Shown here: piece after piece, positions 8,101 to 59,333 of the stretch
Numbering within the stretch: position 1 is the first letter of the stretch
Layout of the letters: every line of letters starts with the position of its first letter
Source: Siphonodentalium dalli
Lineage: Eukaryota > Mollusca > Scaphopoda > Gadilida > Siphonodentaliidae
DNA length: 64,000 nt
Assembly: GCA_032622095.1 (NCBI GenBank)
Contig: CP136068.1
Location: forward strand, 183,400,796 to 183,464,795
Direction: 5' to 3'
Program-made: the position numbers and the translations under genes
Notes under the pieces: model-generated
Told to the model about the DNA's origin: nothing
Databases searched by the model: none
Seen by the model: the letters and a program-made list of their open reading frames with translations, nothing else

Positions 8101-8969
8101 TTGGTCAATGCCCCCAAATTGCGTCCGGTTGACGGGGCAACACATTTTGGGGTATTTTTACTTATAATTGGGAAGTTTTATCATTTTTGGTTCGTGCGAA
8201 GACCTCTTTTTATCATGCGGGAAAAGAGACATTCAAACGCGATTTCGTAATTCGACGCAATAGGCTGAATAGCCTAACCTTCAACCGAGTTCCGGGTCAA
8301 ATACGACGAATGACGTAACACAAAATAAAACGCATTTGTTGACACCGTTTGAAGAGTTTATTATTACATAAAATGATCGTTATTGATTAATTATTGATTA
8401 ATTATTGATATTTCTTGTTGCATATTGGCTGTTATCAATATTTACACAAATGGTATTAATTATTTCTTATAATTGCTCCTTTGGTCAACTTTGACTATCG
8501 GAAAATGAAAATGAAAATATGCCGCTGAAAAAAAATGTAATCGATATTAAAGTCCCATCCTTTCGGCAACATGGAATTGGTTTTAATTACTTAACTGATT
8601 AATATAGTAATTTGCCTTTTATCTGTGTTGAAATGAGAAATGGTAATTGTCTTGTTTTGCTACCATTAAATTAAATAAATTAAGTAAAATACAGTGACAT
8701 TATTTTTTAATTATTTTTTATTACATTTTTGCGCACGTTGGCATCTCTCCGAGTGCATTCTAGTTTCTTTTTGGTTTCGGGAGTTACATAATTGCAGTAC
8801 GGTCTGCGAGTTTAGTCTTTGAACGTAACAAGGGAGAATATTTCTAAGTCTCGGCTCAGAATTTGTTGGCACTTCAGTATAACGGGGCATTCATCGCCCA
8901 GTTCTACATTCCAGGGGGCACATTGTCGTTCCGAGTAGTCAACATTATACAGTTGTCGTCCGTTGTAGA
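5111..8969. other. long stretch without a supported gene
   Basis: About 3.9 kb with only short ORFs. A more GC-rich block at about 6060-6310 lies in otherwise AT-rich DNA but has no open frame. At 6506-6518 the minus strand matches a pol III B box (GGTTCGATTCC), but no tRNA fold or A box could be built around it. Around 8380-8420 a run of ATTGATTAATT words occurs. Confidence 0.45.
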
Positions 8970-9078
8970 GGGAGACATTGAGATTTGTCACCCGCTCGAG
9001 AACGGAATGTCTCCCGAGGAGCGAAGCTCCGAGGGAGACATTCCGTTCTCGAGCGGGTGACAAATCTCAATGTCTCCC
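8970..9078. repeat. 109-bp near-perfect palindrome
   Basis: Arms 8970-9015 and 9033-9078 are 46 bp each and perfectly inverted by direct comparison. Each arm starts and ends with GGGAGACATT or its complement. The 17-bp centre holds its own small hairpin, GGAGC-GAA-GCTCC. A shorter, diverged hairpin with the same GTCTCCC and TTTGTCGCCC blocks is at 15697-15753, so this is probably a dispersed foldback element. Confidence 0.9.
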
Positions 9079-9252
9079 GAGAAGAAGGGCAACAACTGTT
9101 TTGTTATCCGATTATACCACAGAAAATATCCTTGCCATCCACACGCACGATGCTGCACTGAATCATGAGTGCTTTCTTTCCCGATTATGTATATTTTCAG
9201 TGACTACTTATCGTCCCATAGGATTTCTGTTCCATAAACGATAGTCAAGCTT

Positions 9253-17806: not shown

Positions 17807-18115
17807 ATTATGGACTTGTTCGGGTGTGTTAAACTTTCAAGTTAGTATTCATGCAGTATACCAACTGGAGGAATGTAGAAATCTACTAAGTCGCAGAAAT
17901 TCTCAAGCTAATCGGCCGTAGCTCTTTATATAAAACATCACCAGCAATACGCTCAATTGTAAATGTTTACTTCTCGATTCGGGACGCAAATATCGGCGAC
18001 TAAGCAACAAACCGATTTGTCATGGAGAGACGCTGGATTTAATTAATATATCATAATGACAGTGTCTTCTATCAGTTTGGATTTAAATAAAACACAAACA
18101 AAACACAAGATGTCA
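17807..18115 (+). repeat. diverged copy of the 485-bp dispersed repeat
   Basis: It starts with TATTATGGACTTGTTCGGGT and keeps in order the blocks around ACTCGAATG-like text, CAATTGTAAATGTTTAC, CGATTCGGGACGCAA and ATATCATAATGACAG. The right end (the GTTTCACATCAC block) is lost where the LINE-related sequence begins. Confidence 0.7.
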
Positions 18116-18199
18116 GCATAATTCACTTTCTAACAAACGGATGAGGAGGTACTCACAAGTGAGTCGGCACTTCTCCTTGTTCCCCCGGGCGGACAGCTC

Positions 18200-19255
18200 G
18201 GGTGGCCCGTGCACTCGTATAGTTACAGGTTGTACAAAATCGGTCCCCCATGATAGGTTGCTCTTTGAACTCGGATGGGAGAAGCTGGACAGTATGCGGT
18301 ATGTTAAACGAATGAGTATATTTTACGATATTGCAAACAACAAAGCCCCCGCCTACTTAACTCTGCTTCTTCCGTCAAAGGTTAAGGATAACTGTGATTA
18401 CGAACTGAGAAATGCATCAAATTTACATCGTCCCATTTCAAATAGCAAATGAACAGATAAAACTTTCTTCCCATATGCGTTATGGATTGGAACAAATTGG
18501 CTGACAAAAATAAAAGGAAGAAACATTCCACTCGATAGGTTCAAGAATGCACAAATAACTAAGCCATTACAACCACCAACATGTTTTTCATATGGTAAAC
18601 GGCTATTAAATATCCTTCATTGTAAACTGAGGTGTGACTGTGGTAATCTACAAGCTGATAAACTTAAAAATTATATAGCAATTTCTGCTAGAGGTAGGTG
18701 TGGACATTCTGTAGCAAATGCTTTCCACTATTTTTTTGAATGCCGCCCACACTTTGAAGAAAGAATTACACGCCGTAATAATCTTCTGCGCTTTAATATA
18801 CAGTCAGTTAAGGCACTTATATTTGGGGACCCGAACTTAGAACAGTTATAAACTGAACATATCTTTCCAGCTGTGAAAAATTACTTACGAGATACAACTT
18901 AAGAGGAAAATCCGACAAAGTTCTGTTAAGACGCTCGAATCATTTGAATGCAAATTGTACAAATGTTAACAATGCACCATGAGGTACATGTATCACATTT
19001 AAAACAGCTACTTGAAATCATTAATGAAATTATTTAGAATTGGTGGGGTGCTGAGACTACACCCTGTACTTCAAATAATATACAATGGTACACTGTATGT
19101 ATACACTTGTACATTATGTTATACCTATCGTGTTGACAACCCACATTATTATGTATCGGTGTTAAAACGGAAATTGGGAGAGGGGGTTATGTTTAAGTGG
19201 ATCGAACTTGTCCTCCAATCCCAATATGTATTGTTGTATACTTATTGGTAATAAA
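18200..19255 (+). pseudogene. 5'-truncated LINE copy, C-terminal ORF2 plus 3' UTR
   Basis: Reading begins at RIVTGCTKSVPHDRLLFELG (about 18203), the usual conserved block near the end of LINE ORF2, and continues through APAYLTLLLPSKV and NILHCKLRCDCGNLQ to a Cys-His block, CGHSVANAFHYFFEC. At least three stops and one or more frameshifts break it (first stop near 18450). The 3' UTR continues to about 19255 and matches the UTR of the minus-strand copy at 20893-22400. It is inactive and lacks endonuclease and RT. The two copies are oriented tail-to-tail. Confidence 0.8.
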
Positions 19256-20892: not shown

Positions 20893-22400
20893 AAAATATT
20901 TATTACCAATAAGTATATAACAATACAGATTGGCATTGGGATTGGAGGACAGGTGCGATCCACTTATAAATAACCCCCTCTCCAAATTGCCGCTATAACA
21001 CTGATACATAATAATTTTGGTTGTCAAAACAATAGGTATAACGTATTTAGAAGTGTATACATACAGCATATCATTGTATATTATTTGAAAAATAGTTTGT
21101 ATAGTCTCACCACCCCACCAATTCTAAATAATTTCAATACTGATTTCAAGTAACTGTTTTAAATGTTATACATGTACCTCATGGTGCATTGTTAACATTT
21201 TTACAATTTGCATTCAAATGATGCGAGCGTCTTAATAGAACTTTGTCGGATTTTCCTCTTGAGTTGTATCTCGTAAGTAATTTTGCACAGCTTTAAAGAT
21301 ATGTTCATTTTCTAATTGTTTTAAGTTCGGGTCCCCACATATTAGTGTTTTAACTGAATGTATATTAAAGCGCAGAAGATTATTACGAAGTGTAATTCTT
21401 TCTTCAAAGTGTAGATGGCATTCAAAAAAATAGTGGAAAGCATTTTCTACAGAATGTCCACATCTACATGTAGCAGAAATTGCTATATAATTTTGATGTT
21501 TATCAGCTTGTAGATTACTACATTCACACCTCAGTTTACAATGAAGGATGTTTAATAGCCGTTTACCGTATGAAAAATATGTTGGTGGTTTTAATGGCTT
21601 AGTTACTAGTGCTTTCTTGAACCTATCGAGTGGAATGTTTCTTTCTTTCTTTTCATCCAATTTGTTCCAATCCATAACGCATGTGGGGAAGAAAGTTTTA
21701 TCTGTTCTTTTGCTATTTGAAATGGGACGATTTAAATTTGATGCATTTCTCAGTTCGTAATCACATTTATCTTTAACCTTTGACGGAAGAAGCTGAGTTA
21801 AGTAGGCGGGGGCTTTGCCGTTTGCAATATTGTAATATATACTCATTCGTTTAACATACCGCCTACTTTCCAGCTTCTCCCATCCGAGTTCAAAGAGCAA
21901 CCTATCATGGGGGACCGATTTTGTAACCGTCAGCAAAGTAAATTGCTAGACCACCTCCTCGTTCGTTTCTATCCAATCTAATTGGCCCCTGATAATTAGG
22001 AAGCAGTATTTTTTCGCTTGGAAATCCAACATTTAAATGGGTTTCTGTAAAACAAACAATATCATATTCATCAATATGCTCAGTTAGTTTGGACAATTTG
22101 TGTCTTAGACTTCGGACATTATAATGGTAAATTGATAATGTCTCCTTCTCACGCGGACCTGGATTTTTATGCACGTCATTGCTCAAAATAATCAAAAGCA
22201 TACTTATTAGAACTGTACGAACAAGTAATTTTTGCATGTGTCCGAATTTAGGCAATTTAATGTTTGAAGTATTACCACGTCGAGTTTTGGAAAATTTATC
22301 CACATTGCACCTACTGGTACGTAAGTTTAAAAGCCCTATCGCCTGCCTATATTGCACTAGATTTGATGTCATGGCTGATTAAATTGGAAATAACTCACGT
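20893..22400 (-). mobile_element. internally deleted non-LTR retrotransposon (CR1/L2-like)
   Basis: Minus strand. The N-terminal ORF (22372-21905) has a hydrophobic segment (about residues 49-64), the motif NDVHKNPGP (65-73), then endonuclease hallmarks: YNVRSL (84-89), FTETHL (108-113) and a DRNERGGGLAIYF block (134-146). It then jumps directly to the C-terminal end of ORF2 (21936-21232), with TKSVPHDRLLFELGWEKL, LLPSKVKD, WNKLD and a Cys-His block (C157, C159, H168, C173). The rest of the endonuclease and the entire reverse transcriptase are missing. The C-terminal 234 codons are uninterrupted. The 3' UTR runs to about 20893. The hydrophobic plus NPGP arrangement resembles the 2A-like peptides known at the start of some invertebrate LINE ORFs, but the usual glutamate is replaced by histidine, so ribosome-skipping activity is uncertain. 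Confidence 0.8.
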
Positions 22401-25827: not shown

Positions 25828-26045
25828 GGTTCACTTCTGACACATGAACACACGCTGGTTGACGTCACACCCAGCATCACCGAACCTGTACATGCTGTAC
25901 ATATTAGAATACAACACGATCGCGCAGTCCTCGTAACCAACGTCTGGTTCCTGACCCGCCCATGCAATAAATGGGAGAACCAACCCATTCCATGAGTACA
26001 GGGTATTGTTTCCATAGACATCCCTCCCATCAGTCCACATCTGCG
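25828..26045 (-). CDS. C-type lectin-like gene, terminal exon
   Basis: The minus-strand exon begins after a clean acceptor (TTCTAATTTCAG, exon from 26045, phase 1) and runs to TGA at 25828-25830. It encodes the C-terminal half of a C-type lectin-like domain: QMWTDGRDVYG, a long-loop region with W, an EPD triplet (GQEPD), then YEDCAIVL and a final CDVNQRVFMCQ with the two conserved cysteines. The WND calcium-ligand triplet is replaced by a YRFGD stretch, so classical sugar binding is doubtful. With the exons at 28119-27919 and 41867-41660 it would form a type II membrane lectin. The usual WIG core strand between the half-domains was not found and may be missing or lie in an unseen small exon. 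Confidence 0.8.
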
Positions 26046-26720: not shown

Positions 26721-26944
26721 TTTTCTCAAAATTTCAGGAAGCTCTAGTCAAGGAATGGTTAATTTGTCCGCATTTTCGAACGAGAAGTTTCATGTTCTGT
26801 ATTAGTTTGTAATCATCGTCGTTTTAAATCGCTAACGTAACTATAATCATCGTTACCATCGTCGCTGTTATCGCCGCATTCCTATCGTTGTTATGTCGTA
26901 TACTATATATAGTCAACGCCAACATCACTGACATCGTCGTTGTC

Positions 26945-27934
26945 CGTAAGTTCTTATCGCATACAGCACTAACCTTTGTCATGTCCCCGTAAGTCGTTAT
27001 CGCATACAGCACTAACCTTTGTCATGTCCCCGTAAGTCGTTATCGCGTACAGCACTAACCTTTGTCGTGTCCCCGTAAGTCGTTATCGCGTACAGCACTA
27101 ACATTTGTCGTGTCCCCGTAAGTCGTTATCGCGTACAGCACTAACCTTTGTCGTGTCCCCGTAAGTCATTATCGCGTACAGCACTAACCTTTGTCGTGTC
27201 CCCGTAAGTCCTTACCGCGTACAGCACTAACCTTTGTCGTGTCCCCGTAAGTCGTTATCGCGTACAGCACTAACCTTTGTCGTGTCCCCGTAAGTCATTA
27301 TCGCGTACAGCACTAACCTTTGTCGTGTCCCCGTAAGTCGTTATCGCGTACAGCACTAACCTTTGTCGTGTCCCCGTAAGTCGTTATCGCGTACAGCACT
27401 AACATTTGTGTGTCCCCGTAAGTCGTTATCGCGTACAGCACTAACATTTGTCGTGTCCCCGTAAGTCGTTATCGCGTACAGCACTAACCTTTGTCATGTC
27501 CCCATACGTCGTTATCGCGTACAGCACTAACCTTTGTCGTGTCCCCGTACGTCGTTATCGCGTACAGCACTAACCTTTGTCATGTCCCCATACGTCGTTA
27601 TCGCGTACAGCACTAACCTTTGTCGTGTCCCCGTACGTCGTTATCGCGTACAACACTAACATTTGTCGTGTCCCCGTAAGTCGTTATCGCGTACAGCACT
27701 AACCTTTGTCATGTCCCCGTAAGTCGTTATCGCGTACACCACTAACCTTTGTCATGTCCCCGTAAGTCGTTATCGCGTACAGCACTAACCTTTGTCGTGT
27801 CCCCGTACGTCGTTATCGCGTACAGCACTAACCTTTGTCATGTCCCCGTACGTCGTTATCGCGTACAGTACTAACCTTTGTCGTGTCCCCGTGCGTCGTT
27901 ATCGCGTACATCACTAATCTTTGTCGTGTCCCAG
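26945..27934. repeat. 43-bp minisatellite, about 23 copies, abutting a lectin exon
   Basis: The unit is 43 bp, with core phrases GCACTAACCTTTGTCGTGTC and CCCGTAAGTCGTTATCGCG. Identity between copies is very high. Variants are CATG/CGTG, AAGTCG/ACGTCG and one copy shortened near 27405. Read on the minus strand each unit holds GGACACGACAAAG followed by GTTAGT, a good splice donor, and the final copy merges with the end of the lectin exon at 27919. The plus strand also carries GTAAGT in most copies. The array therefore appears to have grown from an exon-intron junction. Confidence 0.95.
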
Positions 27935-28119
27935 TTCCGTTATTAGTGCTGCCACATCATCCAGCATCGCTTGACTCTCAATGGTTATGAGATGAGCTCC
28001 GTCGTCCTCACACGACATCTGTGCGATATGACCAGTCACAGGAGCATCTCCGAACCTCAGTTGATAATTCATACCCGCGAGGATTCGTAGTTCGTACACA
28101 GAAGAAGGGACGTTGGTGG
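27919..28119 (-). CDS. C-type lectin-like gene, N-terminal half-domain exon
   Basis: The exon starts at 28119 after a pyrimidine-rich acceptor (CTGTTTGTCTTCAAG). If it ends at 27919 it is 201 bp, phase 1-1. It encodes NYQLRFGD, then MSCEDDGAHLITIESQAM, the typical core Cys and GAHL signature of C-type lectin domains, followed by LDDVAALITELGH. The expected donor is ACAAAG plus GTTAGT, as in the adjoining minisatellite units. In the copy touching the exon the G is A (ATTAGT), and reading on gives an immediate in-frame TAG. The gene may therefore be splicing-defective in this haplotype or use another signal. The frame agrees with exon 1 (41660, phase 1) and the last exon (26045, phase 1). Confidence 0.7.
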
Positions 28120-28139: not shown

Positions 28140-29394
28140 GAATTACGTTTGATATATGTTCACGCCGTTACTAATGTATGTTTCCTTATAACAATGTTAA
28201 AGCAGTTACCGGTAGGTTTCGTTTCGTATTTATATCAGTGTTTATTTTCGTACTTATATGGGTTGGTGTTGAATAATGGTCGGACAAACTTGCTAACACG
28301 GAAAACAATTAGGTCAAGGGGTGGGTTCCACAAATGCCCAAAGGTAAACACTCATCACTAGTGTCTAAAATTCTGTTATGACACCCGCTGTAAATGCAGC
28401 AAAATACAGAAGATAGCAAAACGTTCAATAACAACTGTTGAAACCCGATGACGTTATGAGGTAATATAGCCTGGTTAAATCACAATTGGTATCAATTAAT
28501 GAAGCAATATTGATCTAAATTATAAATACAATCTGCAATTATCAGTGTGTGCAATAAGTATAGAACACAGTTGGGTGAAACTGTTAACGTTAGTGTTCTC
28601 ATGTGTCCTGTCGCCTGGGTGAACTCGAATGGATGGTTCTCATCCACCTCCGTGTAAGACCAGACTCGTGCAATAACGTTAACCGGTTCACAGTTGTGTT
28701 GCTCTGTCTATATACTGGCACCAACTCTGCATAATATTTTTTTCACTGTAGCCTCTTTTACATTAACTCCCCCTTGGCTTGTTGTCGCTGCATTAATCTT
28801 ACTGTGAATGTGATTAAAAAGTGGTTCGACAAAATTTGGAAAGCAAGCTATTACACCTATATTTCTGTTCGCAATTGGTCAAAGATTTATTTTTGAACAA
28901 TTTTGACCAAAATGTTTCAAATCTAGGAAGTGATCACCTTCCCAAATATAAAAATCAGTTCCACGAGGTGCTAATGCTGATTCACCGTTCAGCTTTCGTT
29001 GCAATTTATATGCGTATTTATCAAATGTAGCTTTCGAACGATGTATAATATACATTTTTACGTTGCTTAGAACGCAAGAAAATTTAGTTTATATCTCACT
29101 TCCCGTTCTTTTTAACGGAATAGTCATCTTTTAGCCGGAACTTGTTCCCGTTCTTCGCCCCGTTCCTATTAATCAATCCCACCACATACCTGTACTCCAA
29201 CTTGAACTAAATTAAGATATGCATCTCTGTAACTGGCGTGCCCCCTCCCTATTGAATTATGATACTGTATAATTATATAAAATAACAAAGATATATGTTC
29301 TCTATCATTTTTGAACTTGTTGACTATTACAATATAACTTTTAAAATTAAAACTCATCTTGAGTGTGTAGAATGAAGTGAAACAATGTTATCCG
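28140..29394 (-). other. part of the proposed lectin intron, no exon seen
   Basis: This begins the 13.5-kb interval between lectin exon 1 and the half-domain exon. Short ORFs only. A pair of partly inverted phrases (about 28577-28600 and 28675-28700) includes AACGTTA words. No domain signal. Confidence 0.4.
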
Positions 29395-37679: not shown

Positions 37680-39380
37680 CGTTTAAGAATGTACACATAA
37701 GGGGTAGGAGCTCCATAAGTTCTACTCGTTGTGCTTTGATCCTTTTATCTCATGAATATCACCAACTATTTTTTTCTGCATTGGTATTCTTTATTTCTTT
37801 CAATGTATTCAGGGTGCATAACGCCATTAATATTGACACATATTTGTGTCGTGCCAGAACATGTTTTTGTGTTCACGACCATTTTGTGGTCGCATAAGAA
37901 GTGCAATTCATCTTCTGTTTGTTTGTGACAAATATTGCAGAAACGCGTTGCCGCATTGTTATTCTTCTACTATACATGCCAATTTGTGTATGGAGCGAAT
38001 GGGCGCTCCATCGTCAATTTAGCGCGTTTATAATTGTCTTGGTAATGTTAAATAGACATAAGGCACTCACAATGAGTAATTTGAGACAAGGATGAGCATG
38101 CATCACGTGTTAAAACATTTGCCAAGTAAATATCACTGTTTTGATAACTCTTTAACTACCACACATCACGTGTTAAAACATCTGTCATATGTAAACGCCA
38201 CTGTCATATTGCCAGTCATATTATCAAAAAACATTTGAGTATATTCTGCTCAAATCTGGAAGTTAAACATTACAAAAGGTGAGATCAATTGAACATATTC
38301 CAGTATACACATATACCGAACAAGAGGTATATAATACAGTACGAAGAACACAATTATGTGACACCAACCAGCAGATATAATATGGTGCACCAGGGGGCAT
38401 TTGCTGTTACATTATTAATATGGCTGAAGTGTTACACGAAAATTCACACATCAATTCATAAGTAATACGTCGAAAACGGTCACAAAATATCATACAGTTA
38501 TTAATTAGAACACTCTTTATTACCTACAGATTTTGGTGCGAATGAAGCATGGACGTTCTGTATACGAGACGATCTTTTGATTTTTGCTAGACTGACAACA
38601 ATACAAAACATGCTAAAACGTCTCCAAAACCTCATGTTAATGGGTTCATTGGTGGGATCTAATTATTGTTTTAATATAAAACGTACATATGTTGGCTTTA
38701 TGTTGCCATGTGTGCATGTGTTACATATATATATGTAAATATGATAAGTCTGAGAGAGAAGAGGGTTTGACACCAAGCGCCAGGTGCTTTTATGGAGCCA
38801 TCTCCTCAGAAAAGAAGAGTATGTGCGAAATGAAAAGAGAAAATTAGAGATCGAGAGGTAGGAGACAAGAGATATGAAGAGGGAAACAGAGCCATGGATG
38901 AAGTAAAGGTCGAATATAGAGAATGAAAAAAAGAAACAAGACATTATGACAAATTTAAAACATGAGATGATCACTGCTCTGTGTATATCAGTATAATTTA
39001 TAAATTTTAAATTAACGTTTGATTCATTTTACTATTACTTATGGATTAGCCAAACGAATTGCCAGTCGAGATGAGTCACTTGATCGTTATGCCTATATAG
39101 ACACAGCTATTTTGCTCAGGTTGCATGATGCAATGATTCGATTCATTCAAATACTTTGAATTGACTCATTCCTTTTCGAACACCAGTTGTACATGGGACA
39201 TCATATAGAAATACACGCGTCCTCTGTACTATAATCGAACTTATTTTGTCCAGACTTCTAGACTAGTGGTATTTGGATTGAATGACTTACGTACATAGCT
39301 ATATATAAGGCATATATTTCCCCCTGCTGTCGGGTATTCGTCAAAATAACCGCTCGGCTACTCCTCGGTAAATTATTGTT
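37680..39380. other. no gene recognised
   Basis: A short direct duplication around CATCACGTGTTAAAACAT lies at 38101 and 38164. A purine-rich stretch (GAGAGAGAAGAG type) is at 38750-38940. No coding evidence. Confidence 0.45.
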
Positions 39381-40100
39381 CCGAATACCGTACAGTTTGG
39401 TGTATATCATCCGAATACCGTACAGTTTGGTGTATATCATCCGAATACCCTACAGTTTGGTGTATATCATCCCAATACCTTACAGTTTGGTGTATATCAT
39501 CCGAATACCCTACAGTTTGGTGTATATCATCCGAATACCCTACAGTTTGGTGTATATCATCCGAATACTCTACAGGTTGGTGTATATCATCCGAATACCG
39601 TACAGTTTGGTGTATATCATCCGAATACCCTACATTTTGGTGTATATCATCCGAATACCCTACAGTTTGGTGTATATCATCCGAATACCCTACAGTTTGG
39701 TGTATATCATCCGAATACCCTACAGTTTGGTGTATATCATCCGAATACCCTACAGTTTGGTGTATATCATCCGAATACCCTACAGTTTGGTGTATATCAT
39801 CCGAATACCCTACAGTTTGGTGTATATCATCCGAATACTCTACAGGTTGGTGTATATCATCCGAATACCGTACAGTTTGGTGTATATCATCCGAATACCC
39901 TACATTTTGGTGTATATCATCCGAATACCCTACAGTTTGGTGTATATCATCCGAATACCCTACAGTTTGGTGTATATCATCCGAATACCCTACAGTTTGG
40001 TGTATATCATCCGAATACCCTACAGTTTGGTGTATATCATCCGAATACCCTACAGTTTGGTGTATATCATCCGAATACCCTACAGTTTGGTGTATATCAT
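39381..40100. repeat. 30-bp minisatellite, exactly 24 copies
   Basis: The unit CCGAATACCCTACAGTTTGG plus TGTATATCAT is repeated 24 times with no length change. A block of marked variants (ACTCTACAGG, then ACCGTACAG, then CCCTACATT) occurs at 39561-39650 and again at 39831-39920, so nine units (270 bp) were duplicated as a block. Because 30 is a multiple of 3 the array is open on the plus strand as a 10-residue repeat (PYSLVYIIRI), giving a 264-codon ORF (39376-40170). Part of the minus strand is open too. I treat the ORF as a by-product. Confidence 0.97.
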
Positions 40101-41659: not shown

Positions 41660-41867
41660 CAGCGCTTCTTAGGAGTCTGCTATCCCGATAAACCACAACC
41701 GCAATGCCGATGGATACGATGGCAAACACAACAAGCATCCCGAAACAAACCATCTTAACTCGTCGCGTTAGAACCGGATTTTTAACTGTCGGGTCCATAA
41801 TTATTTCAGCTGTATCTGATTCTCTGCCCAATCCTACTGACACATTGTAAACCTTTGATGAACCCAT
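41660..41867 (-). CDS. C-type lectin-like gene, exon 1 (cytoplasmic tail and transmembrane anchor)
   Basis: From ATG at 41867-41865 the minus strand encodes about 69 residues to a strong donor (GTAAGC, exon end 41660, phase 1). Residues 1-38 are polar (MGSSKVYNV, then TAEIIMDPTVKNPVLTRRVK). About 22 hydrophobic residues follow (MVCFGMLVVFAIVSIGIAVV), then YRDSRLL, the layout of a type II single-pass membrane protein. An in-frame upstream ATG at 41921 would add 18 residues; the downstream start is preferred because it puts a short tail before the anchor, but this is not proven. Donor phase 1 matches the acceptor of the lectin half-domain exon at 28119, implying a 13.5-kb intron. The linkage is inferred. 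Confidence 0.6.
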
Positions 41868-58371: not shown

Positions 58372-59333
58372 GACATATAATCGTACATCCTGGTACGCAT
58401 CTGTTTTCGACATAGAATCGTACATCCTGAGACATAGAATCGTACATCCTGGGACATAGAATCGTACATCCTGGGACATAGAATCGTACATCCTGGGACA
58501 GATAATCGTACATCCTGGGACATATAATAGTACATCCTGGGACATATAATCGTACATCCTGGGACATATAATAGTACATCCTGGGACATAGAATAGTACA
58601 TCCTGGGACATATAATAGTACATCCTGGGACATAGAATAGTACATCCTGTGACATAGAATAGTACATCCTGGGACATAGAATCGTACATCCTGGGACATA
58701 GAATCGTACATCCTGGGACATAGAATCGTACATCCTGGGACATAGAATAGTACATAATGCGACATAGAATAGTACATCCTGGGAAATAGAATAGTACATC
58801 CTGGGATATAGAATAGTACATCCTGGGACATAGAATAGTACATCCTGGGACATAGAATAGTACATCCTGGGACATAGAATAGTACACCCTGGACATAGAA
58901 TGGTACATCCTGGGACATAGAATAGTACATCCTTGGACATAGAATAGTACATCCTGGGACATAGAATAGTACATCATGGGACATAGAATAGTACATCCTG
59001 GGACTTAGAATAGTACATCCTGGGACTTAGAATAGTACATCCTGGAATATAGAATAGTACATCCTGGGACATAGAATAGTACATCCTGGGACATAGAATA
59101 GTACATCCTGGGACATAGAATCGTACATCCTGGGACATAGAATAGTACATCCTGGGACATAGAATAGTACATCCTGGGACATAGAATCGTACATCCTGGG
59201 ACATAGAATCGTACATCCTGGGACATAGAATCGTACATTCTGGGACATATAATCGTACATCCTGGGACATAGAATAGTACATCCTGGGACATAGAATAGT
59301 ACATCCTGGGACATAGAATCTTACATCCTGGGA
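58372..59333. repeat. 22-bp minisatellite, about 43 copies
   Basis: The unit is GTACATCCTGGGACATAGAA plus TA or TC. Nearly every copy is 22 bp (rare 21-bp copies such as near 58890). Variants are AATCG against AATAG, GACATAT against GACATAG, and GACTTAG. AATCG copies cluster at 58377-58500, 58676-58730 and 59110-59250, showing block duplication. All three minus-strand frames are open for hundreds of bases because the unit has no stop in any register; the ORFs of up to 250 codons there (M-Y-Y-S-M-S-Q-D-V type) are by-products. Confidence 0.97.

Follow-up and report, generated by a model that had tools for sequence, protein, structure and literature searches.

A putative junction-derived minisatellite beside a lectin exon that has lost its own splice donor in the scaphopod Siphonodentalium dalli

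Can an exon that has lost its splice donor be served by copies of that donor lying immediately downstream? The question is raised by a locus of the scaphopod mollusc Siphonodentalium dalli, where an exon encoding half of a C-type-lectin-like domain ends on AT instead of GT and is followed by a tandem array in which 22 units keep GT. The stretch of DNA analysed, here called the window, comprises 64,000 nucleotides (assembly GCA_032622095.1, contig CP136068.1, positions 183,400,796 to 183,464,795), and positions below are those of the window. The locus offers what appears to be a clean case of a junction-born minisatellite, for which 51 paralogues from the same genome serve as controls. It is also a natural test of how splicing proceeds once an exon has lost its proper donor and has 22 copies of that donor lying next to it.

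The lectin exons and their family

27919 to 28119, minus strand: lectin exon A, first half of the C-type-lectin-like domain, 201 nt, phase 1 at both ends, acceptor ...ttcaag
25831 to 26045, minus strand: lectin exon B, second half of the domain, open frame ending VFMCQK-stop, acceptor ...tttcag

Both exons are on the minus strand and share a phase-1 junction with the array in between; exon A joined straight to exon B would read ...LGHDKAQMWTDG.... Exon A is supported by its open frame and by 51 paralogous exons with an identical end point. Its relatives are plentiful, with at least 150 matches in the genome at E <= 0.001 (150 of 471 candidates scored), and 52 copies were compared, namely the window copy, 15 loci and 36 fetched copies, or roughly the best-scoring third of the matches listed. 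In addition, 20 paralogous exons B were fetched and read. Against a curated cut-off of 22.6 bits for Lectin_C (PF00059), the joined window exons score 22.2 and one paralogue 21.1; another paralogue, taken with its upstream exon, scores 22.6 versus 22.6 for Lectin_C and 21.5 versus 21.4 for PAN_1, and the exon halves taken separately gave no matches in the Pfam profile search. It is paralogue L029 plus L061, not the window copy, that matches 11 chains of solved structure (E up to 0.1), the C-type lectin mosGCTL-1 among them at E 1.9e-4.

In a tree of 21 copies the window copy is without a well-supported sister, and it lies 39 Mb from the lectin cluster at 142-144 Mb of the same contig. Within that cluster, three near-identical copies (L011, L012 and L013, at C8 143.04, 143.66 and 144.04 Mb) are spread through 142.4-144.4 Mb, which suggests recent large duplications. 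One cysteine is present in exon A of the window copy and three in exon B. A further pair, at exon A codons 3 and 36, occurs in 39 of the 42 distinct exon A proteins; both members are lost in the window copy (where the codons specify N and S) and in L060, and one in L051. If the two residues are indeed partners, their disappearance may represent the paired loss of one disulphide and not random decay.

The repeat array

26944 to 27932, minus strand: 43-bp minisatellite, 23 units, each with 13-14 nt of exon end and 29-30 nt of intron start
26890 to 26945, minus strand: distal flank (GGACAACGACGATGTCAGTG...), read as the original intron resuming beyond the last unit

Tandem Repeats Finder (TRF) reports the array with period 43, 23.0 copies, 95% matches and a score of 1733, and a unit map places 23 units from 27931 downward, followed by a decayed remnant at 26945. 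The unit at the exon side forms the end of exon A, as the original prediction had it, and the estimate made there of about 22 consecutive donor copies agrees with the count of GTTAGT in 22 of the 23 units (preceded by AAAG in 18 and by AAAT in four). The exon-abutting unit carries ATTAGT, with A at 27918, and three other changes, four in all; two of its changes are private, occurring in none of the 22 other units. Core units mostly have 0-2 changes, and the far unit gives way to the decayed remnant. The GTAAGT noticed earlier on the plus strand of array copies is there as well, 16 times, and no meaning is assigned to it.

A search of the 2.23-Gb genome with a two-unit query, which skips very common words, returned 11 matches, all 11 inside the window array, and on those terms the array was found nowhere else. 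A tandem array touching the donor is present in one of the 52 exon A copies, that of the window alone, 36 of the 52 being covered for about 200 nt past the donor; this, and the fixed place of GT in 51 of 51 paralogous exons, speaks against coincidence. On the far side, ACAACGACG stands at +31 from the donor of the last unit; of 39 distinct paralogue intron starts, nine have it at +18 or +24, compared with 1 of 231 control stretches. The array has the exon at one end and, to judge from these letters, what appears to be the resumed intron at the other, the layout expected from tandem duplication of a junction. Elsewhere in the window there are two further long minisatellites, at 39380-40100 (30 bp x 24.0) and 58409-59333 (22 bp x 42.1).

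The lost donor and the stop behind it

27918, minus strand: donor +1 position, A for G (ATTAGT), with GT in 51 of 51 paralogues and AT in the window copy alone
27914 to 27916, minus strand: in-frame TAG just past exon A, intrinsic to a phase-1 GTTAGT donor

All 51 paralogous copies of exon A share the codon at which they end, and GT comes next in each, in 44 as GTTAGT, in four as GTCAGT and in one each as GTTGGT, GTGAGT and GTTTGG. Against that background the claim that the exon's own donor is broken holds, the change being G to A at +1. The exon end and its continuation read ...GGA CAC GAC AAA GAT TAG, again as had been described, with the TAG at 27916-27914. Any suggestion that this stop stems from the broken donor is not supported. 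In phase 1, a GTTAGT taken as exon sequence yields xGT TAG, and the stop therefore arises without any mutation; were the donor intact and read through, the codons would be GGT TAG, and a stop is found at the codon after exon A in 45 of the 52 copies. An AT-AC type of intron was considered and rejected: the intron ends in AG, and ATTAGT is unlike a U12 donor.

Computed splicing outcomes

A script joined 93 GTs in turn to exon B, starting 20 nt inside exon A and going beyond the end of the array, and none of the 93 keeps the full domain. Four, all within exon A, stay in frame at the loss of at least 19 residues. When donors from 100 nt inside exon A onward were combined with alternative AGs no more than 60 nt from the start of exon B, there were seven open combinations of 98-128 residues, all from GTs inside exon A; two of the seven use the normal acceptor and are already among the four. 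Skipping of exon A would keep the frame and remove half of the domain.

The 22 GTTAGT donors of the array all lead, on computation, to an identical truncated end, ALITELGHDKD-stop, and the expectation that splicing at the second copy would carry the stop is confirmed. The stop would lie 38 nt before the junction with the donor of unit 2, 81 nt with that of unit 3 and further with later units. The lesson is that phase-1 GTTAGT copies are no spares: each carries its own stop, so the reading frame closes whichever downstream copy is used. Now that the proximal donor is lost and the array donors truncate, none of the tested GTs restores the protein. Two of the outcomes first envisaged fare poorly: a neighbouring donor used at a cost does not restore the domain with any of the 93 GTs, and an array turned decoy finds no support here.

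The region upstream of exon A

Upstream exons of the gene were not found by blastn or tblastx against the paralogue loci. The intron, the downstream flank and 7.9 kb preceding exon A gave no blastn match to these loci at E 1e-4, and 10.1 kb compared by blastn and tblastx with four paralogue upstream regions gave exon A itself and otherwise weak, unconvincing matches. A scan for signal-peptide-like exons with phase-1 donors yielded a single exon in the window, of transmembrane type and with two start codons. It yielded none in the four paralogue upstream regions, for which reason the scan says little.

41661 to 41867, minus strand: transmembrane-type first exon (MGSSKVYNV...VVYRDSRLLRSA) with a phase-1 G|GTAAGC donor

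This exon, 13.5 kb upstream of exon A on the same strand, could be the first exon of the gene of exons A and B, which would then be a chimera, or the first exon of another gene. It has 14 genome matches including itself, and by eye the 13 others are not near the listed exon A matches. Among the three relatives' loci fetched, one (L085) has a C-type-lectin-like exon, phase 1 at both ends, at 8931-9110 of its reverse complement, 8.9 kb downstream of the transmembrane-exon relative; it resembles exon A only weakly (E 0.23). A stretch at 28493-28641, about 370 bp upstream of exon A, has its closest copy, among those scored, in the locus of a transmembrane-exon relative. As a sign of a shared gene it was ruled out, being part of a dispersed repeat, for which scoring of 40 of the 83 candidates gave at least 40 matches, its own included.

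A PAN exon, first found upstream of a paralogue, lies within 30 kb and on the same strand in at least 17 of the 52 copies. None was found within 30 kb upstream of the window copy among the matches entered (43 of 148, chosen by eye for best scores or nearness to clusters, after scoring of 150 of 306 candidates; 53 of 150 in the case of exon B). With only 17 of 52 copies having the exon that close, its absence does not single out the window copy. Two other open frames of the window, at 18087-18851 on the plus strand and 21232-22378 on the minus strand, encode similar peptides (DRLLFELGWEKL...) and look like copies of one retroelement.

Status of the assembled allele

Of the outcomes entertained in the original prediction, a gene dead in this haplotype is the likeliest, with the absence of a usable donor and the place 39 Mb from the main cluster in its favor and the openness of exons A and B against it. 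The favored account, held as probable, is of a boundary-spanning minisatellite whose exon-abutting donor was later lost, and of an assembled allele that, given the splicing outcomes above, is most likely a loss-of-function copy belonging to a large and redundant lectin family. Dead copies occur in the family, as seen from an in-frame stop in one of the 20 exons B read, that of L052/L077 (C8 182.45 Mb), probably a dead paralogue, which is about 1 Mb off and has the nearest exon A among the matches listed. With conserved residues defined as those kept in at least 90% of other rows, the window copy shows eight departures, tied second of 21, and L052/L077 shows 12; when the count is restricted to exon A, the window copy takes third place among 42 distinct proteins (7 departures, median 1), a ranking that omits one copy with a shorter exon.

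The coding exons nonetheless run for 138 codons without stop or frameshift. The dN/dS of the window copy against 20 paralogues has a median of 0.42 (range 0.23-0.60), no higher than the median of 0.45 between paralogues (187 of 190 pairs), so that death of the gene, if it is dead, would be recent or confined to this allele. This can fairly be read as selection on the protein over most of its past, followed by a donor loss of recent date.

In the one assembly read, the base at 27918 may be fixed, segregating or erroneous. The constrained look of the coding exons is also what would be expected if the A were a rare allele or an error of sequencing or assembly, with an intact donor on most chromosomes and the array harmlessly spliced out. 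Tandem arrays are hard to assemble, and there is only the one assembly; moreover, the accounts of amphioxus arrays of this type in PMC3087553 and PMC3902484 report them as harmless to splicing. Against this, the two private changes of the exon-abutting unit are as expected of an edge unit and argue that it is not a misplaced core unit, an argument that bears on the placement of the unit and not on base 27918 itself. An error or rare allele is judged unlikely, though it is the strongest competitor of a loss-of-function allele.

Less probable still is that the array donors are in use and yield either a stable half-domain protein or a transcript lowered by nonsense-mediated decay, the outcome depending on the length of the array. 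The 22 donors are identical to those of 44 of the 51 paralogues, and the computed distances from stop to junction, 38 nt for unit 2 and at least 81 nt from unit 3 on, fall on either side of the 50-55 nt rule for nonsense-mediated decay in vertebrates. However, of the four cysteines in exons A and B only one would remain in such a product, and the fold would be missing its second half; nor is there any sign of selection for a truncated form. Were the array donors used, splice-site competition would be measurable within one natural gene. An elaboration, quite improbable, has a once-silent intron array become the only donor source for exon A and tune, through array length and donor choice, a truncated lectin transcript, decay-prone from unit 3 on and possibly stable from unit 2, in a gene that is perhaps also a chimera.

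Origin of the repeat unit

The uniform end of the paralogous exons, with GT directly after in 51 of 51, divides the unit into 13-14 nt of exon and 29-30 nt of intron. Over the last 14 exon bases, agreement with the unit is 9-12 in 41 paralogues, 13 in five, eight in four and five in one. An exon lacking the unit text, such as an orthologue might provide, was sought among the same-genome paralogues, where the text is present in varied form (5 to 13 of 14 bases alike). For the intron part, free local alignment was weak, with 14 of 51 above the 95% level. A register test and a 9-mer count were chosen once this was known: across 39 distinct paralogue intron starts, unit bases +7 to +19 show 43% agreement in register, where 30 other shifts give 13-36%; of 20000 shuffles, 187 reached the in-register value. 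Homology of the intron start beyond the donor is moderate. Exon ends and intron starts of the paralogues both match the unit, in keeping with the derivation from an exon-intron junction that was first proposed, and on comparison of the letters the array is best described as a boundary-spanning minisatellite copied from the junction of exon A and its intron. That it is an independent intronic minisatellite merely touching the exon deserves hardly any credence: many paralogue introns are ACGACGATG-rich near their start and could have been repeat seeds, but the first 13-14 nt of the unit are exon in the paralogues with the donor in register, and no array was found at the donor of the 51, 36 of them read for about 200 nt beyond it.

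Proposed history

A 43-bp stretch straddling the junction, with 13-14 nt from the end of exon A and 29-30 nt from the start of the intron, would have been tandemly duplicated and then expanded to 23 units, by slippage or unequal exchange. The duplication was perhaps helped by a near-repeat, GGACA-CGAC / GGACAACGAC, found at either end of the unit. At first the exon-abutting donor would have been intact and presumably used, with the other 22 lying in the intron. Later the exon-abutting donor alone would have changed from GT to AT, after which any array donor, as computed, would add an in-frame TAG first and give a product ending ...LGHDKD-stop in which the second half of the domain is absent. 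Since 22 units still have GT, either duplication preceded the donor change or no copies were made of the changed unit, a matter of parsimony and not proof; duplication first and donor change second is the simplest order.

Comparison with known systems

The closest parallels are in amphioxus. The globins BflGb6 and BflGb9 are described in PMC3087553 as having minisatellite-like tandem duplications of intron-exon boundaries, of a type named mirages for the boundary duplications of Adh3 in work cited there, and PMC3902484 adds TnC and PGBD5 as cases. Unit lengths given in PMC3087553 are 10-72 bp for Adh3 and 150-160 bp for the globins, with haplotype differences in length and with units that are homogenised, boundary units excluded. 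As described in these sources, mirages share with the window array units that span the boundary and carry splice signals, and uniform core units with diverged edge units; the 43-bp unit is within the Adh3 range. The window array has boundary-spanning units, splice signals in 22 of 23 and a uniform core with diverged edges. It differs in having 23 units, in residing in a lectin gene and in the loss of the exon's own donor. The regular splicing that, according to PMC3087553 and PMC3902484, amphioxus mirages leave undisturbed is predicted to fail for the window allele.

Internal tandem repeats at exon-intron boundaries are described in PMC2812944 for human genes in segmental duplications, and these too are minisatellites in recently duplicated gene families by which splicing can be altered. 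There, however, alternative or new introns with transcript backing are described, whereas no tested GT of the window gives full length. In the Rogers model of intron gain via tandem duplication of AGGT segments, treated in PMC4974935 with a potato RdRp case, splice signals are likewise multiplied by duplication; in the window the donor alone is multiplied, and no new intron is inferred. Titles, abstract openings and selected passages, including some of PMC12783039, gave no published boundary array with a broken proximal donor, which is not a claim of absence from print. The window array is another mirage-type minisatellite, ordinary in kind and unusual in its lost proximal donor.
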